Position numbers and translations under genes: made by a program
In this document: positions 6,601 to 30,242 of the stretch, piece by piece
How positions within the stretch are numbered: position 1 is the stretch's first letter
Layout: every line of letters begins with the position of its first letter
Assembly (NCBI RefSeq): GCF_051622035.1
Contig: NC_135361.1
Span: 26,839,205-26,903,204 of the forward strand
DNA from: Arctopsyche grandis
Taxonomy: Eukaryota; Arthropoda; Insecta; Trichoptera; Hydropsychidae
Length of the DNA: 64,000 nucleotides
Direction of reading: 5' to 3'
The notes under the pieces: model-generated
Seen by the model: the letters and a program-made list of their open reading frames with translations, nothing else
The model's database searches: none
Told to the model about the DNA's origin: nothing

Positions 6601-7999
6601 TTTGCCGCCAAGGCAACAGTATGACTTCCGACTACAGCTCGAAGTCCTCCACCAGCCAGCACAGTTTGTGTACCCAACATCACCTATTCGAAACAAACAG
6701 CATAATTCAACCAGTGTCAATAAATAGACGTGCGTATTTATTATATATTAACCTTATTAACACGGGACATGACAGCGAAAATGGCACTATCGGCTATAAC
6801 CGTAGTTTCAATTTTGGCTTTCGCCAACTGTGCAGCCATACGATGTCCCTACATAGACAAAAAAAACATTAGCAAACCAATCCAAGTCATCAGACACAAA
6901 CATTCTTATAACAATTACCTCTCCGTTGGGTGCGTTTTCGGCGACCAATACATGAAACTGTCTTTTTTGTGCGGCGCGTTTCAAAAACGATTCCACAAGT
7001 CTTGAAGCGCCGAGAGTCAAAATGATTTCATTCGAATGTATATGCTCTGTAGCCTGCGATGCGATACTCTCGAGACTGCAAAATTCATATAAAGCCGTGT
7101 ACGAAATATCATCAAGTAATTAACACAAGTATGAGCATCTATAATGTAATACCAAGTCTCCAATTCAATTTGAAATTCAGATATGTGTTCGAGTACCGTT
7201 TCTTTAAGATTGGGTACATTTTTACGGTACGACGTTGCAGCTTCGTCGTTCGGTCTAACAATCCCTTCTAAGGAATTAGTTGTCGAGGCACTCGCCGATG
7301 AAGAGTCCTTCAAAGAATTTCAGACATTGTATTATACATCTAATGACCAAATTGTTTACACATTGTTGATTACAGTAATAAGTTCAACCTTGGTTGCGGC
7401 AATGTATTCCGTTCTTATGATGCACAAAATCCTTCGGACCATATTCCCCGCTACGGCTTCTTGAGGCAATCTGTTTACAAGTAACTTTCCAGCAGTTTTC
7501 ACTTGATCCAATAATTCTCTAATTTTCAGAAGATATATTAATACAGTTTTATATTATATATTAAATGTTTATGTAATATTTTGACTTACTCTGCATTTTC
7601 GAATTTTGCTTTTTGTATGAGGTCTTTCAATAAGGTTACCGTATTTACGGCTATTTTAAAAGACCCGTCAATTTTCCTAGACAAAAGAAAACATTTAATA
7701 AAACTTTCATTTTTTTTTTAGGCAAATAAAAAGTAAAGATTTCAAAAAGGGTATAAATTGTGTCCATTCTTATAAATAGTTTTATATATCTAAATATGTT
7801 CCTCCAAACGCAAGTGACAAGAGTGTTAATATTATAAAGAAAAGGTGATCCAATTAGACCTGGTCTTCACATCGGAGATAAACTTGACGATAGGGTCTCG
7901 CACCGTCTCTTCAGGCATCCTGACTGATTGCCAACTGTCAAGTTTTACACCAGCTGCCTCTTCCACTAAACAGGTTAGCTCGATTGAATCATTTGACAT
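3667..7999 (-). CDS. eIF2Bbeta: Translation initiation factor eIF2B subunit beta
   Basis: Ten exons on the minus strand: 7999-7860, 7676-7590, 7518-7389, 7307-7153, 7075-6919, 6848-6753, 6683-6585, 6506-6400, 3908-3819 and 3739-3667; 1134 nt, 377 residues. eIF2B beta is a regulatory-core subunit of the guanine nucleotide exchange factor that recharges eIF2 with GTP. Recognition blocks: [77 protein letters not shown], and a terminal block [19 protein letters not shown], all typical of EIF2B2. The donor after exon 1 is weak (GTCTAA). Intron 9 is 2.5 kb and holds a MITE, a LINE fragment and a solo LTR; the other introns are short. The terminal exon begins 3 bp beyond the SIAH-like stop codon on the opposite strand. 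Confidence 0.93.
4067..4257. mobile_element. Short palindromic MITE in eIF2B beta intron 9
   Basis: The left arm TTGCAAACCACGTGGCTGCA continues TGCTCATTTC and is mirrored with a few changes by GAAATGAGCATGCAGCCGCG continuing TAGTTTGCAA at the right end. The arms are about 30 bp around a core of about 130 bp. No coding capacity and no clear target duplication. Confidence 0.7.
4300..5590. other. AT-rich intron sequence
   Basis: Part of eIF2B beta intron 9. It contains long A and T runs (for example at 4817-4833 and 5255-5269) and no recognisable gene or structured repeat. Confidence 0.5.
5600..5890 (-). mobile_element. LINE 3' coding fragment
   Basis: Read on the minus strand this is a decayed C-terminal segment of a non-LTR retrotransposon reverse transcriptase, resembling W-x-G-H-x-A-R-R-x-D-E-R followed by a basic linker and WRRGL. 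The same segment occurs in plus orientation at 49765-50020 and in poorer form at 38955-39125. It lies in eIF2B beta intron 9. Confidence 0.55.
6062..6336 (+). mobile_element. Probable solo LTR (fossil)
   Basis: The segment starts TGTAACATAGAG and ends GCAACA. It is more GC-rich than the surrounding intron and contains a TATA-like box (GAGTATAAATATTGG) followed downstream by an AATAAA signal, the usual LTR order. No second copy or internal region is present nearby, so it reads as a solo LTR, probably of the Gypsy or BEL group. Ends and family are uncertain and I see no clear target duplication. Confidence 0.45.
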
Positions 8000-8227: not shown

Positions 8228-8380
8228 GGTTCGGTGATTCCTCCGCAAAAAGCGATCGCGCGCACGTCACTAAAATTTTGATCACAGAACATCTGGCACC
8301 CAAAAATTCCATCAATCGCGAAATATTGTACTAACGAGAACTCGAGTGCCAGATGTATTGTGTATTCCCGATTTTTACAT
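8228..8380. mobile_element. Left part of a GGTTCGGTGATT-family element
   Basis: Begins GGTTCGGTGATTCCTCCGCA and continues with CACGTCACTAAAATTTTGATC, then GGAACATCTGGCACCC-like sequence. Near-relatives occur at 14058, 14470-14596 (reverse), 29040-29147 (reverse) and 29295. It is cut on its right by the palindromic element at 8390. Confidence 0.65.
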
Positions 8381-8389
8381 ACCTCCTTT

Positions 8390-8766
8390 GCCGGTTTCCG
8401 TGACGAGCCAGAATGTTAAATTACAGAAAACGCAAATATCGGAAGGCAAAGATCGAAAATCGAAAGATCAAAAAAAAGGGTGCATGGTAAACGATACATA
8501 CTCACTTAATTTGCGCGAGCAGGGTACAACAGGAACAAGAGGAATAGGCTTTTCCTCCCGTATTCTGCGCGCGCACATTAATACGGGAGGAAAAGCCTGT
8601 TCCTCTTGTTCCTGTTGTACCCTGCTCGCGCAAATTAAGTGAGTATGTACCGTTTACCAAACACCATTTTTTTTGATCTTTCGACTTAAGGTCTTTCGAT
8701 TTTCTATCTTTGCCTTCCGATATTTGTGTTTTCTGTAATTTAACATTCTGGCTCGTCACGTAGACC
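8390..8766. mobile_element. Near-perfect palindromic MITE with 8-bp target duplication
   Basis: A foldback of about 377 bp. The left arm runs GGTTTCCGTGACGAGCCAGA ... GAGGAATAGGCTTTTCCTCC; the right arm mirrors it almost base for base and ends GGCTCGTCACGTAGACC. The direct repeat CCTCCTTT lies at 8382-8389 and 8767-8774, a perfect 8-bp duplication as made by hAT-type transposases. Apparent open frames are by-products of the palindrome. A second copy is at 24842-25160. Confidence 0.85.
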
Positions 8767-8780
8767 CCTCCTTTACATAC

Positions 8781-8935
8781 CTAAAACTGGTCACACCCTA
8801 AAATCGGTCAACCAGTTTTCTCGTGACCGATTTTAGGGTGTGACCAGTTTTAGTGTGACGGGTGATCACGTGTGACCGATCTAGAGCGATCGGTTGTCCT
8901 GCGACCGGTTCACATTTGACTAGTAATCACCGAAC
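8781..8935. mobile_element. Half copy of the ACTGGTCAC palindromic element
   Basis: Contains the right half of the family described at 29447: repeated ACTGGTCACACCC-type motifs, then GTGTGACGGGTGATCACGTG and the right terminus ending AATCACCGAACC. The left terminus is missing. It lies head-to-tail with the fuller copy starting 5 bp later. Confidence 0.75.
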
Positions 8936-8940
8936 CAGTG

Positions 8941-9247
8941 GGTAAACGGACTACTAGTCATATGTGAACCAGTCACAGGACAACCGGTCGCTCTAGATCG
9001 GTCACACGTGATCACTCGTCACACTAAAACTGGTCACGAGAAAACTGGTCACACCCAAAAATTGGTCACGAAAAAACTGGTCACACCCAAAAATTAAAAT
9101 TTGGTCGAATTTTTGGGTGTGACCAGTTTTCTCGTGACCAATTTTTTAGTGTGACCAGTTTTCTCGTGACCAGTTTTAGTGTAACGGGTTATCACGTGTG
9201 ACCGGTTGTCCTGTGACCGGTTCACATTTGACTAGTAATCACCGAAC
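8941..9247. mobile_element. ACTGGTCAC palindromic element, copy A
   Basis: Left end GGTAAACGGACTACTAGTC, right end GACTAGTAATCACCGAACC. Both arms carry CACGTGATCACxCGTCACAC and several ACTGGTCAC units around a short centre. Same family as the copies at 17151, 22308, 28720 and 29447. The flanks are other repeats, so no target duplication can be assigned here. Confidence 0.85.
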
Positions 9248-9269
9248 CCCCTGAGTGACACCTACGGAA

Positions 9270-14057: not shown

Positions 14058-14596
14058 GGTTCGGTGATTACTGGTCACAAAGTCACTAAAATCTCTATAA
14101 CGGAACATCTGGCAGCTGAAAAGTCCATCATACTAAGAACTTGAGTGCCAAATATTGCGTATTCGCGATTTTAATATGAAACATTGTCTTTTTGACCACC
14201 GCAATGTGACGAATAATCCAATTACCGCTATTTTACCGTAAATCTTCATAAAGTGGAATATTTTGGCCACGTTACTCGTGACACCAACTATCGTCTTCTA
14301 CAGAATAATGAAAGGGAAAGTAGAGAGCAAACCGTGGCTTTGAAGAAAGAGGCTCTCTTGGTTCCGGAACATTTCGACTTGCCCAAGATAAAACAAAGTT
14401 CGCACAGTGTGTTAATAATGTTAAACGGAGTATTGCGCAAATTGCGATCGCGCGCACGATAATCGTTGCATTCAAATATCTGGCACTGAAGTTTTCGTCA
14501 GTACAATATTTCTCGTGGGTTTCAATTGATGGAGTTTTTGGGTGCCAGATGTTCCATGATCAAGATTTTAGTGACGTGCGCCAGATCGGAATAACC
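14058..14596. mobile_element. GGTTCGGTGATT-family composite element with LINE scrap
   Basis: The left end GGTTCGGTGATTACTGGTCA is followed by GGAACATCTGGCAGC, GAACTTGAGTGCCAAATATT and CAATGTGACGAATAATCC. The right end is an inverted relative (CCAGATGTTCC ... TAGTGACG ... CCACCGAAACG). Inside, near 14253, the plus strand encodes EYFGHVTRDTNYRLLQ, typical of the C-terminal end of a LINE reverse transcriptase. The left half is closely related, in reverse, to the element at 28670-29147. Confidence 0.65.
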
Positions 14597-14639
14597 ACCG
14601 AAACGTTAATAATATCTGCCCGTGGTAGTCATTTACGCC

Positions 14640-17150: not shown

Positions 17151-17333
17151 GGTAAACGGACTACTAGTCATATGTGAACCAGTCACAGGACAACCGGTCA
17201 CAGTTCACGAGAAAACTGGTTGACCGATTTTAGGGTGTGACCAGTTTTCTCGTGACCAGTTTTAGTGTGACGGGTGATCACGTGTGACCGATCTAGAGCG
17301 ACCGGTTCACATTTGACTAGTAATCACCGAACC
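17151..17333. mobile_element. ACTGGTCAC palindromic element, copy B (short)
   Basis: Starts GGTAAACGGACTACTAGTC and ends AGTAATCACCGAACC. The arms are shorter than in other copies and part of the left arm is missing. The flanks GAAACCGC (17143-17150) and GAAACCGG (17334-17341) form an 8-bp duplication with one mismatch. Confidence 0.85.
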
Positions 17334-17475: not shown

Positions 17476-20400
17476 ATGGCTCAACCTGTCTACAATCCGG
17501 TTAATATTTCTGAACACACAACATTATATGTTTAGCTAAATAAGAAACCTATGTAAATATTGCATTCGCAGTGACCTTAGCAATGGCAAAGATGAGTCAT
17601 ATATCAAACAAATCCAAAAGAAAATGTGCACTTACTCTGTGTTCTACACGATACGAGTGCACTCGTATCGTTTCAAAAACTACAAACCACTGACAAAAGA
17701 TTAAATAATGATTTTTATCAAATAAAATAATAATTAGCTAGAGGCATGTTATTCATTCATGTTAATCTCAGATCATTGTCTGATAAAATTTATCCCAAAT
17801 ATTTATACACCTATCTCTGGGTATTTTTATTTACCTCGCTTTAGAAACATGCTTGCTATCAAATCATTTGATTTGCATAAAACACCATATGTTCATATTT
17901 ATTAAAATATATTAAGCTTGTTGTAGATTATATTGTACTAATCAAAGATAAATTTGAAACTGCATAGATTTTACTAATTACTGATATTTGTAAGTAATGA
18001 CCACTGTGAAGAAACAATCGCTCGAGTCTTCGATTCAAGAAAAACAAGTTCGATTGTTCATTCATAACTAATTATATTTTGACCAATGAAGTTTCTTATA
18101 GATTTATATATATTTTAGCTATCAAGCTAATTAAAAAATACATCTTAATTATTATACTTAACTCTAAAATTTATAATTAACTTATATGTACTGTCCCTCA
18201 CAGAGGTGTCTCTTCGCACCTCGCAGGAATGCATCCATGTTTTTAGCAGACCTGACGCACTCAGGGAGGGCATTATACATGAGCACACCCCTGTGAAAAA
18301 CACCCCCAGCCGTCTTATTCTTTCTTACTCTACTTACAACTAGTTTGTCCTTATTTCTAGTATAAAAACTATGTTTATCTCTATTCCTTATTATATAATC
18401 ATCAAAATATTTAGGTAATAACTTATGATCTAACTTATAAACAAAAGACAATGTACTAATATTTAGACTAATTCTAATACTCATCCATTCTTATTCATCT
18501 AACATACTTCCAATACTCTTAAATCTACTCACATTCAAAATAGCTCTCATAGCTTTATTCTGTATTTTTTGCATTTTTTCTAAATCTTGGCCACTAAACA
18601 AATTAAGCACAGTGGCACAATAAACCACATGTGGCAAGACAATTGAATTAAACACTAAAATTTTACTTTTTTTACTTAAAATATTTCTTAATCTACATAA
18701 TACACCAACTTTTCTAGCCATTTTTTTTATTATATAGTCAGCGTGCATTTTAAAATTTAGTCCTGAATCTATGTATACACCTAAGTATTTTATATTTTCA
18801 ACTTTTTCAATTAACTTATCATCAATTCTAATTTCATTCAATATATTTTTATTTTTACCATTCAACCACATCATTTTTGTTTTATTCACATTCAACTTTA
18901 ATTTATTTTCACACAACCAGTCATTCACATAATTTAATTCTATATTTAAAATCTCAGACATTACATCAACATTCTTTCCAATTATATATATCAATGTATC
19001 ATCTGCAAACAAATGTATTTTACACATCTTAATTACCTTAACAATATCATTTATATATAATATAAATAATAAGGGTCCCAATTTGGACCCTTGCGGCACT
19101 CCATGAGGTGTTACAAATTCAGAGGATAACACCTTATCAATTTTTAATATTTGCCTTCTATTATTTAAGTATGATTGAAGCCACTTTAATACTATACCAT
19201 TTATTCCTAACTTATATAATTTTTGTAATAAAATAATCCTATCTACTGTTTCGAACGCTCGCTTAAAACCTAGAAAAACTGCTCCAACAACCATGCTAGA
19301 TTCATCCATCGCCTCCATCCAATCAGAAACCACCAATTGGATAGCGGTTTCTGTTGAATGTTTCACTCTAAATCCAGACTGTTCCACAACCAAACAATCA
19401 TTTATACTAATGAACTCTTTCAATTGAATCATAACGATTTCCTCCAGCATCTTCTCAACAATTGGTAACATATTGATGGGCCTCATTTCGCTGGCTTTAT
19501 GTGTGCCAGTAACCTTTGGTACCGGTACAATAGTAGACACCTTCCATGCATCCGGGACGGATCCCACTTCTAACGATTCATTTATTAATTTCAGTAACTG
19601 AGGTCCAACCATGTCCCAAGGGTTGATTAAAATATCTAGAGTCAATCCATCCATACTAGAAACTGATTTCATGCCCTTCAATACACCATTTAATCCCCCC
19701 ATTTCCACTAATTTAAACCTATCAAACTTATTTAAACCCAAATTAATATCATCATTCACACTATTATGCCTTGTTTGTATTGAATTAACTATATCATTCA
19801 CACTATTGATGTAAAACTCATTCAATCTTTCAACCATATCCTCTTTATCATTATATACTACCCCCTCGACTTCTAATTCATTCAAAGAAAGATTTTTTCC
19901 CCCGGAAATCAAAGTTTTAATTATTCGCCACATTTTTGTGGGATCTTTTTTTGCACCATCTATATTTCTTTCATGCCAATCCCTCTTCGCATTACGCAAA
20001 ACATTCACACATTTATTCCTCTTCCTTTTATACTCTAACCAAGCCTTTTCTTATTGGATTCCATCCATAGCCTTAATAATTTTATATCTTTTATAACTAA
20101 CATTCTTATCAACTAAGCTTTCCTTTACTTCCTTGGTAAACCAAGGTTTCAGCTTATGCTTATGCATGATTCTTGTGGTTTTTACGCATTTACTTTTAGA
20201 ATATGTTATATTACGATACATTATCTCCCACATTTCATTCACACTATCACCATCCTTTCCCCATACACACTCCTTTAACAATTCATTCATCGATTGATAA
20301 TCAATGTTTTCTCTTTCAGTCACCTGCATACTTTTAAGTCCTCCGTCAACCTTATTAACTATTACATTACCGTAACTTAAATCATCCCTTAAATACAATA

Positions 20401-23400
20401 GTACCCCACCCGTATCTCTAGAATTAGAGTCACACCTCAAAACACAATATCCATCTATATTCAGCTCAAAATCTTCAAAATCACTAGTTACATGCGTTTC
20501 ACTTAAACCTATAAATTATGGTTTTTGACTTACAGTTAAACTCCAAACCTAATCCTTGTGAGCAAAAAAACTTTGTACATTTATACCGATACCTTTTGGT
20601 GGTTGCTATATATTATTATACTTAATTCTATTTCTCATTAATTCCATATTTCTTTTATATACACTGCACTTAGTGTCCAACGGTCCGTGATTCGTGTTCA
20701 AATTTAATTTTAATTTATTATTACACTTGAAGCAATTAATACATTTTATATAAATGGGAGTCAATTATTGAGTATCCTCTCTCCACTTGGGTTCTTGCTT
20801 AACACTATAGCGGCCGCTGACTCATATTTGTATCATATTGGGTGCACAACGCTTACTGGCCGCTGATACATAAATGATTCACTTCATTGATATATATATT
20901 TGTATCACATACAAAACGTGATACATAATTGTATCATCGGCCACAAACGATTGACGCAAACGTGATACAATAACATATCAGCGGACTGAAACAGTACGCC
21001 CAGTCGTAAATCATACCAGCGGTCATTAAGCATTGTGCACCCAACATGATACAAATATGAGTCAGCGGCCGCCATAGTGTTAATAACATAACAGTTACAA
21101 TACTGTATAATGCAAAACATACTAGTATTATTATATCAAAATAGTATTAATTTATATTTCATGTTTACTCTGCATAGCCTATCCCATATTTGGGGCCGAT
21201 ACCTGGAGGTTGCCAACCAGGTCAAATGATAACGATTGACGGATTCATTCCGAATCATGCTCAAAGGTATTGAATTAAAATTGCCATAGATTCTTCTGTA
21301 TGTTAACCTTATTTAAATGGCAATTCAATTTTTCAGATTCGCTATCAATATTCAATGCGGACCTGGTGTAAATCCTCGCGATGATATCGCGCTGCATATA
21401 AACGTCAGATTTCCGGAGATGTGCATTGTTCGCAACAACTTGCAGTCCATGAATTGGGGTGCGGAAGACGTGTCTGGAGGAATGCCGCTCTCGCCCGGAA
21501 AGAACTTCCAAGCGATCCTTCTATGCGAACAGCAAAGTTTCAAAGTAAACTTTGAAATTCAAACGACCTGGGCGAATCACCAATTGCGAAATTTTGTTTA
21601 ATTTTATATTTTTGGATTTTAGTTAGCGTTGAACGGACAGCATTTCTGCGAATTCCAGCATCGCACACCGATATATAGAGTTTCTCACTTGACTATAGAT
21701 GGTGACGTTACCATTTCTATGATCCAATTTCAAGGTTCATCCCCAAGCTATCAAGTATGAAATTTTGCTTTTGATAAATGAGTAATCATAATGCGGAGCA
21801 ATTCATAGATAGTTTCGTTTTACAGCCTGGCTCTTGGAATAGTCCAATGGGAATGGCGTCCGCGCCTTCGATGGAAGCTCCGCCTCCATATGGTCCTCCA
21901 CCACCATATAGTAACCAACCAGGTACTTTATAGAGAATATGCGGAATAGTAAAGCCTTTTGATAGTGTGTTGATCGTGATTCCGTTGCAAAGTAAAAACC
22001 TTTATTTTCCATAAGAACGGTGTCCCAACAAAAATGTCTTTCAAAACATGCAGCTAATGCTTTGCAAAAACATGCACAGTCCGGGTGTTCACTCCGATTC
22101 ATTCATAAGCAAACAAGTTTGTTCATACATGGACTATTGGTTTTTAGTTATAGGGGTCCACCTTACGGCACAACCTTTTGAGTTGAAGAAGACTCGAAAA
22201 ATGAACTCGTACCAAAGCATTAATATTAAGAGTGGGGGTAGATGGTTTACGAGACAAGTACGCGTGTATGCGTGAGAAAACGTCTACCTCCAATCCTAAC
22301 ATAAATGGGTAAACGGACTACTAGTCATATGTGAACCAGTCACAGGACAACCGGTCGCTCTAGATCGGTCACACGGGATCACCCGTCACACTTGAACTGG
22401 TCACACCCAAAAATTCGACTAATTTTTGGGTGTGACCAGTTTTTTCGTGACCAATTTTCAGGTGTGACCAGTTTTAGGGTGACGGGTGATCACGTGTGAC
22501 CGATCTAGAGCGACCGGTTCACATTTGACTGGTAATCACCAAAACCTATAAATGCTTTGGTACGAGTTAATTTTTCGAGTCTTCATCAACTCAAAATGTT
22601 GTGCCGTAAGGTAACTAAAACCAATAGTCTATGTATGAACAAAGTCGTAAGGCCACCGTAGTTTAGTCAAAAGCCATCTTCAAACTTTTAACTGTCAAAG
22701 TGCCAAGTATTGAAATGATTACTGTTCGAAGTATTTCCAAAATACACAAGACACATTTTATAAAAAGCTTAAAAGCGTGATCAGGGATTGATGTTGGCAT
22801 TTCTCACGAATACATAGTATAAAGGAAATCTACAAAGCAAAAAATCAGTGTAATAAACAAGGATTTCACACTAATAACTAAATTACTATAATTCTCTCAA
22901 CATGAATTTGATATTTTTCACTTCATTATTGCTGTACCGGGTTCAAACCGAAGATCTCTCAATCGGAAACGGTTTCATGACTAGAGGTAGGACTGGAAGC
23001 GTGCCGTTTTTTTGTTTATTGATCGCCGTGCACTGTTCATTTTTATGATGAACCTTTTTTTTGCACTCTAGCTTTGTAGTTTGCTCTATTTCCTGGAAAA
23101 TAGACCCAAAATGCCCTGTTTCCTGGAAAAAGACACTCTTCCGGTCCTACCTCTAGTCATGACAGAGAAGTCCCTGAACAAATAGCGAACGCCACAACAT
23201 CCCCAACAAAATGATATCGCAACTTAATGTCTACGAACAAAATGATAAAGCGACATAATATCCACGGACAAAATGATAATGTGAAATAAAATGATATTCA
23301 TATATTTAAAACTGAATTTTTTAACGTATTCTAGTACATTAGAAAGTGATAAAAATTTCGATTAGACTGCCTTATCTAATATTTATTTATTAATATGTCA

Positions 23401-28669: not shown

Positions 28670-29147
28670 AAAAAATAAATGCACGTCTTTTTGACGGTAA
28701 TTGGACTATTCGTCACATCGTTAAACGGACTACTAGTCATATGTGAACCAGTCACACGACAACCGGTCGCTTTAGATCGGTCACACGTGATCACCCGTCA
28801 CACTAAAACTGGTCACACCCTAAAATCGGTCAACCAGTTTTCTCGTGACCGATTTTAGGGTGTGACCAGTTTTAGTGTGACGGGTGATCACGTGTGACCG
28901 ATCTAAAGCGACCGGTTGTCTTGTGACCGGATCACATTTGACTAGTAATCACCGAACCGTCACATTGGGGTGGCCCCAAAGACAATTTTTGCCATGAAAA
29001 TCGCGAATACACAATATTTGGCACTCAAGTTCTCGTTGCTATGATAGTTATCGTTAGTATGATGGACTTTTCGGCTGCCAGATGTTCCGTTATAGAGATT
29101 TTAGTGACTTTGTGACGAGTAATTTGTGACCAGTAATCACCGAACCC
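28670..29147 (-). mobile_element. GGTTCGGTGATT-family element split by copy D
   Basis: On the minus strand it starts GGTTCGGTGATTACTGGTCA, then GGAACATCTGGCAGCC and GAACTTGAGTGCCAAATATT, and matches the left half of the 14058 element through CAATGTGACGAATAxTCC. The palindromic element at 28720-28958 interrupts it. The 28670 boundary is approximate. Confidence 0.7.
28720..28958. mobile_element. ACTGGTCAC palindromic element, copy D (nested)
   Basis: Left end GTTAAACGGACTACTAGTC, right end AGTAATCACCGAACC, with arms mirrored almost throughout. The flanks GTCACATC (28712-28719) and GTCACATT (28959-28966) are an 8-bp duplication with one change. The related element at 14058 has the same site once, uninterrupted. 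Confidence 0.9.
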
Positions 29148-29289: not shown

Positions 29290-29395
29290 GAGATGGTTTG
29301 GTGATTATTCCGCAAAAAGCAATCTCGCGCACGTCACTAAAGTCTCGATCACGGAACATCTGGCACTCAAAAACCACCATCATCCGTTGAGAGTG
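29290..29395. mobile_element. GGTTTGGTGATT-family fragment
   Basis: GGTTTGGTGATTATTCCGCA, then CACGTCACTAAAGTCTCGATC and GGAACATCTGGCACTC, match the left end of the 8228 element. Only the first 100 bp or so are present. Confidence 0.6.
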
Positions 29396-29446
29396 GTGGT
29401 GGTTTAACTATATTTATAATAATTTCAATTTTAGTGCATGTACAAC

Positions 29447-29743
29447 GGTAAACGGACTACTAGTCATATGTGAACCAGTCACAGGACAACCGGTCGCTCT
29501 AGATCGGTCACACGTGATCACCCGTCTAAAACTGGTCACGAGAAAACTGGTCACACCTTAAAATCGGTCACGAGAAAACTGGTTGATCGATTTTAGGATG
29601 TGACCAGTTTTCTCGTGACCAGTTTTAGGGTGTAACCAGTTTTCTCGTGACCAGTTTTAGTGTGACGGGTGATCACGTGTGACCGATCTAGAGCGACCGG
29701 TTGTCCTGTGACCGGTTCACATTTGACTAGTAATCACCGAACC
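29447..29743. mobile_element. ACTGGTCAC palindromic element, copy E (best preserved)
   Basis: 297 bp from GGTAAACGGACTACTAGTC to GACTAGTAATCACCGAACC, flanked by a perfect 8-bp duplication TGTACAAC (29439-29446 and 29744-29751). Each arm holds the terminal block, GATCGGTCACACGTGATCAC and repeated AAAACTGGTCACGAG or ACTGGTCACACC units. The repeat number differs between copies. There is no coding capacity, so a hAT-type transposase acting in trans is the likely mover. Confidence 0.92.
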
Positions 29744-30242
29744 TGTACAACATGAGATCGACAAACTGGTGGCTTAAGTTTTGTTAACAGATATTTATGA
29801 TACTTATTTATAACTGTATGTCAAAAAGATAATCTGTAAGTATATAATACACAGTCCCGTGGCGGGTCAAATAAATGGGGGGCTCCCAGGTGCATTTGAA
29901 ATTTGAGACCCCCATTTCAGTAAAAAAAAATGCTATAATCGTTTTTTACCATACTTTTCAGTATATGGGTTTTCATTAAGATTTTACAAAACTATATTTT
30001 TAATTATTATATGTACATACTTGAAACACTAACAGTTTTTGGAATTAAATATATACTATTTTAAAATACTATACAAAATAGGTAATAATTTCATTTATTC
30101 TTGGCTTACGAATGTATTGCGGACATTGATAATAATTTTTAAGTTGTAAATTTTGTAGCAAAGGCCCATATCGTAGCCCCCAAGATTCGGGGGCCCCAAG
30201 CGCGCGCTTATTTTCAATGTATGATAAAACGCTGCTGGGTAT

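Follow-up and report, generated by a model that had tools for sequence, protein, structure and literature searches.

A thousand-copy, unnamed group of foldback-type MITEs in Arctopsyche grandis

What is the 297-bp palindromic sequence at positions 29447..29743 of the window (the whole 64-kb stretch analysed here, from contig C7 of a 475.7-Mb assembly in 189 contigs), and what kind of enzyme might move it? The preliminary description saw in it one of five copies, plus a half copy, of a multi-copy palindromic transposable element with target duplication. All six are there, and the counts of their ends in the genome, the hairpin fold and the duplications agree with that description: this is a small hairpin-shaped mobile DNA that has spread about a thousand times in the genome. 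What was described as one family is indeed a multi-copy family, but this family, A, shares its end cores with several others. The members in the window are as follows; the letters of copies A to C are those of the preliminary description.

8228..8263, + strand: family C-type right end with no recognised partner
~8783-8936, + strand: family A half copy that has just a right end, 4 bp ahead of copy A
8941..9248, + strand: copy A, family A; no target duplication seen in the flanks read
14058..14226, - strand: family B copy with its right end at 14058 and its left end at 14226; flanks of 9 bp, GCTTTTTTT/GCTATTTTA, with two mismatches
14420..14604, + strand: degenerate family C-type copy; perfect 9-bp flanks GTTAATAAT
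17151..17333, + strand: copy B, family A; flanks GAAACCGC/GAAACCGG
22308..22546, + strand: copy C, family A; flanks CATAAATG/TATAAATG
28696..29146, + strand: family B element, host of copy D; 9-bp flanks CTTTTTGAC/CTTTTTGAG with one mismatch
28720..28958, + strand: copy D, family A, within the family B element; flanks GTCACATC/GTCACATT
29295..29330, + strand: family C-type right end with no recognised partner
29439..29446, no strand: target duplication of copy E, left side, 8 bp, TGTACAAC
29447..29743, + strand: copy E, family A foldback MITE, 297 bp; left end GGTAAACG..., right end GGTTCGGT...
29744..29751, no strand: target duplication of copy E, right side, 8 bp, TGTACAAC

As had been proposed, copy E lies between two perfect copies of TGTACAAC, and the copies at 17151, 22308 and 28720 have 8-bp flanks with one mismatch. 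Among the genes of the window are one for a tubulin and one for a protein in which Vps54_N and Syndetin_C domains were recognised. Retroelement remains occupy 18491-20515 on the minus strand, with two open frames and an RVT_1 reverse transcriptase domain in the longer one.

Exact matches to the left-end 20-mer GGTAAACGGACTACTAGTCA occur at 1,039 genome sites and matches to the right-end 20-mer GGTTCGGTGATTACTAGTCA at 1,091, whereas the reversed control matches none. Individual end positions were taken from contig C1, for which they are complete (99 left, 95 right). Among 51 neighbouring convergent end pairs no more than 12 kb apart on this contig, 46 span only 159-464 bp, and these short pairs comprise 44 left-right and 2 left-left combinations, with no right-right one. 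Reading of the five longer pairs revealed nested insertions in three, a chimeric-looking structure in one and, in the last, something other than a single element. Contig C1 thus yielded no autonomous element bounded by two exact ends.

Several candidates for long elements were rejected individually. The 1,562-bp copy (L079 52-1613) holds an insert with CAGTGGCGG ends and a GTGACGAG duplication, which is presumably hAT-like, judged by its ends only, and the 1,071-bp copy (L078) contains another insert, which we take to be Harbinger-like. The right-right pair of 898 bp (L041) is without a duplication and appears to be chimeric. The pair spanning 7,264 bp (L080) does not form a single element; its right member is part of a complete copy at 7050-7322.

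Copy E is predicted to fold into one long hairpin over nearly its full length, with a folding energy of -144.2 kcal/mol compared with a mean of -38.5 for shuffled sequences (z -30). The repeat unit ACTGGTCAC occurs 22 times in the window against an expectation of 0.21, and none of 100 shuffles reaches that number. Across 31 copies the unit is present 0 to 8 times, and its number follows copy length closely (rho 0.90), bearing out the earlier view that the arms expand and contract with unit number. The suggested test of unit count against copy age gave a negative answer: for 25 copies that are shorter than 600 bp and differ at no more than 12 positions per 50-base arm, unit number is uncorrelated with divergence (Spearman rho 0.00, p 0.99, n 25). 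Over the outer 100 arm bases, copies differ from the consensus of their end type at 3.5 positions on average. We saw no coding sequence in the element copies, Rfam yielded no matches, and the right-end pattern has no match in viral contigs and none in prokaryote contigs.

Target duplications were assessed in 43 deduplicated end pairs, namely 38 left-right, 4 right-right and 1 left-left, all of which were kept in the denominator. Eleven pairs are flanked by perfect 8-bp duplications and 14 by perfect 9-bp duplications, where shuffled pairing predicts ~0.2 and ~0.4, respectively. Allowing one mismatch adds two pairs to each class, and duplications of 7 or 10 bp are absent from the 43. Copy 22308 was counted as lacking a duplication in this set, its end being displaced by one base there. 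The right-right pairs (L023, L041, L084 and window positions 8228-8936) are all without duplication. Thus, the 8-bp duplication proposed for the family is real, but it is accompanied by a 9-bp class, and both sizes occur inside family A.

The sites of insertion share some features. The 11 8-bp sites give 22 readings when both strands are used: 21 have a purine at the outer position, and every one has A or T at position 3 and hence also at position 6. The 25 perfect duplications have a G+C content of 0.24, compared with 0.36 for the window. One insertion can be reconstructed directly, as copy D splits the family B element at 28696-29146 between GTCACATC and GTCACATT, while the unsplit site TTCGTCACATTGGGGTGG is intact in the family B copies at L039 and L080, which provides a paralogous empty site. 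Copy D therefore entered a pre-existing element and duplicated 8 bp of it.

The two duplication sizes bear on the superfamily. Elements of the hAT and P type make a strict 8-bp duplication, so that a hAT- or P-type MITE would account for the 8-bp sites but not for the 14 perfect 9-bp ones. A hAT dimerisation domain does lie at C1:5282719-5285185 (2,467 bp, L077 120-2586), with a right end on one side and a left end on the other. This domain, however, belongs to a separate hAT element that has CA(A/G)TGGCGG ends, is flanked by a GTCACACG duplication of its own and is nested in a family A copy; it was rejected as a partner. The 9-bp class leads us to set hAT and P aside as very improbable.

Three families were recognised by ends within 3 mismatches of a left core, GGTAAWYGGAYTA, or a right core, GGTTCGGTGATTA. 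Families A, B and C have these cores in common, with scattered mismatches. Next to the core, family A ends carry CTAGTCA-ATGTGAACC, family B ends have TTCGTCACATTG on the left and CTGGTCACAAAGTCAC on the right, and family C ends have TTCCGCACAAAGCGATCTCG and variants of it. Of 225 collected ends, 140 were classed as 'other', most of them chance matches by their look. The arms of families B and C are visibly related, and those of family A are different. Exact 20-mers of family C number 207 for the left end and 550 for the right, and all nine family C pairs of up to 600 bp that were read by eye, from C1, C2 and the first matches listed on C3, are left-right.

These elements are short, multi-copy and noncoding, with inverted-repeat ends, duplications of two sizes (8 and 9 bp) and, for copy D in family B, an empty site at L039 and L080. 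They are almost certainly foldback-type MITEs. We place the probability of the whole explanation, a non-autonomous cut-and-paste DNA transposon of this type mobilised in trans by what is most likely a Merlin transposase, at roughly 55%. In each element, 13-bp end cores would cap two long arms made of subterminal ACTGGTCAC-type repeats. A DDE transposase acting in trans, probably encoded by another element, would excise the element and reinsert it by staggered cleavage of A+T-rich targets, the two cuts lying 8 or 9 bases apart; the 8-bp sites read purine-N-W...W-N-pyrimidine. One left-type and one right-type core would be needed by each element, and gain or loss of repeat units would let arm length drift.

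The attribution to the Merlin (IS1595) superfamily, which we regard as an even call, draws on the termini and the duplications. In the available part of PMC8101967, the hallmarks of Merlin elements are given as GG termini and 8- or 9-bp duplications, and highly imperfect terminal inverted repeats (TIRs) are on record there. The elements studied here likewise begin with GG and have duplications of 8 or 9 bp. We searched the genome with the transposase profiles PF12762, PF05699 and PF10551; the preliminary description had called for an autonomous transposase with the same termini, and none was found in the loci that could be read. PF12762 gave 41 Merlin matches, and in none of the 32 loci inspected is a Merlin gene enclosed by a left end of these families on one side and a right end on the other, so we do not file the element as a proven Merlin member.

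Of 30 Merlin loci scanned together, four have such ends nearby. At L016, L029 and L033 the ends belong to short copies beside the Merlin match. The nearest case, L023, is a foldback with a Merlin fragment between two family B right ends; it proves nothing, because it lies inside a 440-bp inverted duplication and has no target duplication. Two further Merlin matches, L083 and L084, revealed no credible element ends.

Most PF12762 matches cover positions 68-149 and belong to one foldback of ~626 bp that carries a transposase fragment. Its ends are GGTAAAAGTCGG, and 12 two-ended loci among 30 searched include 4 with perfect 8-bp duplications and 3 with one mismatch. The foldback is exemplified by L032 1362-1987 (L012-L038), with ~210-bp arms, many copies, GGTAAAAGTCGGAATTC ends and 8-bp duplications. 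One Merlin element with an open 318-aa frame (L010) has ends GGTACCGG/GGTGCCGG and a 9-bp duplication. A Merlin lineage other than that of L010 accounts for at least 124 matches (some of them two per element), mostly fragments and many in a foldback that ends GGTAAAAGTC and has 8-bp duplications. Long open frames with an IS1595-type transposase domain were also seen at L009, L011 and L015 (C6:7929-7935 kb, C1:39437 kb), where no element ends were found, and L011 has in addition a partial zf-AD domain (24.2 bits, cut-off 28). The zf-AD domain is mainly an insect domain. These three loci may be domesticated Merlin genes.

A strong rival to Merlin is a MULE of the Muta1 kind, of which the elements would be non-autonomous derivatives: foldback elements whose long TIRs combine a terminal motif with variable subterminal repeats, moved by a MULE transposase. 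An 8-10 bp target duplication with long TIRs, as expected of a MULE, is what we find. According to the portion of PMC5225508 available, every one of the 14 Aedes MULE families makes duplications of 8-9 bp, subterminal tandem repeats of 9-15 bp occur in 10 of the 12 families with long TIRs, and Muta1 derivatives vary in repeat number. The available part of PMC13359780 adds that most arthropod MULEs start with three G/C bases. Since subterminal tandem repeats, 8- or 9-bp duplications and G/C-rich first bases are, by the accessible portions of both sources, equally typical of insect MULEs, they count against Merlin. The genome also holds 60 MULE domain matches, many in open frames of 450-690 aa.

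Several observations, weak as evidence, speak against a MULE origin, which we hold to be the less probable of the two. The first 10 bases here are unlike the palindromic terminal motif described for Muta1, and Muta1 is presented in the part of PMC5225508 at hand as lacking a target preference, whereas the 11 8-bp sites show one. Family C-type ends at L087, L089 and L090 point away from the open frame or sit in short separate copies and do not bound the frame. On the same side is the absence of the ACTGGTCAC unit from six MULE loci read (of 60 matches), in reads that stop short of the MULE ends. As a separate observation, the MULE loci L085 3806-4201 and L086 3639-4001, with open frames of 487 and 482 aa, contain tandem repeats of ~80-99 bp.

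The asymmetry of the ends, noted in the preliminary description for the copies in the window, proves to be a family-wide property, with AAACG on the left and TCGGT on the right at positions 4-8. In a comparison of 31 copies, all of family A except one B-like copy, the two arms agree in 61-100% of copies over positions 1-60, the exceptions being positions 4-8, 11 and 21, at 0-3%, and position 31, at 23%. An AAACG-type left tag is paired with a TCGGT-type right tag in 34 of 34 left-right copies shorter than 600 bp, a count limited by the choice of copies through their similarity to these ends (up to 4 mismatches in 20). The tags are exactly AAACG and TCGGT in 23 of the 34, and the rest are off by one or two bases on one side.

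Seven variants are mirrored on both arms of a single copy, compared with a mean of 0.88 and a maximum of 5 in 500 trials with random arms. The arms of one element may exchange sequence with each other. Inheritance within subfamilies is also possible for the mirrored variants, because 68 variants occur on one arm only and 6 of the 7 mirrored ones are found again in further copies.

Convergent pairs of 100-700 bp, collected across all families and loci, number 42, of which 38 are left-right. The other four have two ends of the same type: left-left at L071, L091 and L090, and right-right at L084, which combines a C-type with an A-type end. Of the 38 left-right pairs, 30 are bordered by an 8- or 9-bp duplication with no more than one mismatch, whereas none of the four same-end pairs is. 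Elements with two like ends thus exist, and none of those examined bears the mark of transposition, although four is a small number. The left-left copy at L071 is a rearrangement and not a product of transposition, as its flanks are mutually inverted over ~19 bp with one mismatch. Foldback elements with inverted flanking DNA were seen at L023 1009-2104 (443 bp, 93%), at L028 ~1245-1870 (40 of 40 bases seen) and at L071 1480-1741 (~19 bp); the flanks at these loci are either mirror-image duplications or assembly artefacts.

The differing tags hint at an enzyme that distinguishes the left end from the right. Descriptions of TIR transposons usually present their ends as close to interchangeable. 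Here, it is about as likely as not that the transposase recognises each end as a site of its own, such that only left-plus-right elements transpose, which would give a eukaryotic TIR transposon a fixed end polarity. This reading is encouraged by the families, as A and B/C differ in their subterminal arms and yet keep the same left and right cores. The tags, fixed in otherwise palindromic elements for which no partner was found, might also point to a different superfamily, perhaps one not yet recognised, whose transposase treats the two ends asymmetrically. We consider that improbable, as known superfamilies already account for the terminal GG and the 8- and 9-bp duplications.

Overall, the locus belongs to an abundant, unnamed group of foldback-type MITEs of a known, ordinary kind, for whose end strings a search of open-licence literature text gave no match. 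The fixed left and right tags are the point worth following. Many natural elements have arms that are alike save for a five-base tag and a few single positions, so that end polarity is isolated as a variable. Any need of a Merlin- or MULE-type transposase to pair left with right is therefore testable with natural substrates.

Terminal GG, 8- or 9-bp duplications and highly imperfect TIRs are common to these elements and to Merlin DNA transposons (IS1595/IS1016-related), as the latter are described in the available part of PMC8101967. They differ from Merlin in that certain fixed positions distinguish left from right ends, with matching arms behind, and in that no Merlin gene was found between such ends in the 32 loci inspected. 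The Merlin-fragment foldback of the same genome likewise has a GGTAAA terminus, an 8-bp duplication and foldback arms. It differs in holding a partial Merlin transposase and in having two ends alike, which past the first six bases (GGTAAA) show no significant similarity to family A or to family C (p ~0.12). With MULEs of the Muta1 kind and their derivatives, as portrayed in the accessible portion of PMC5225508, the elements have in common 8- and 9-bp duplications, long TIRs in which subterminal tandem repeats lie behind a terminal motif, a repeat number that varies and a foldback shape. Compared with these MULEs, they are without the palindromic 10-bp terminal motif, and they have a target preference and ends specific to left and right.
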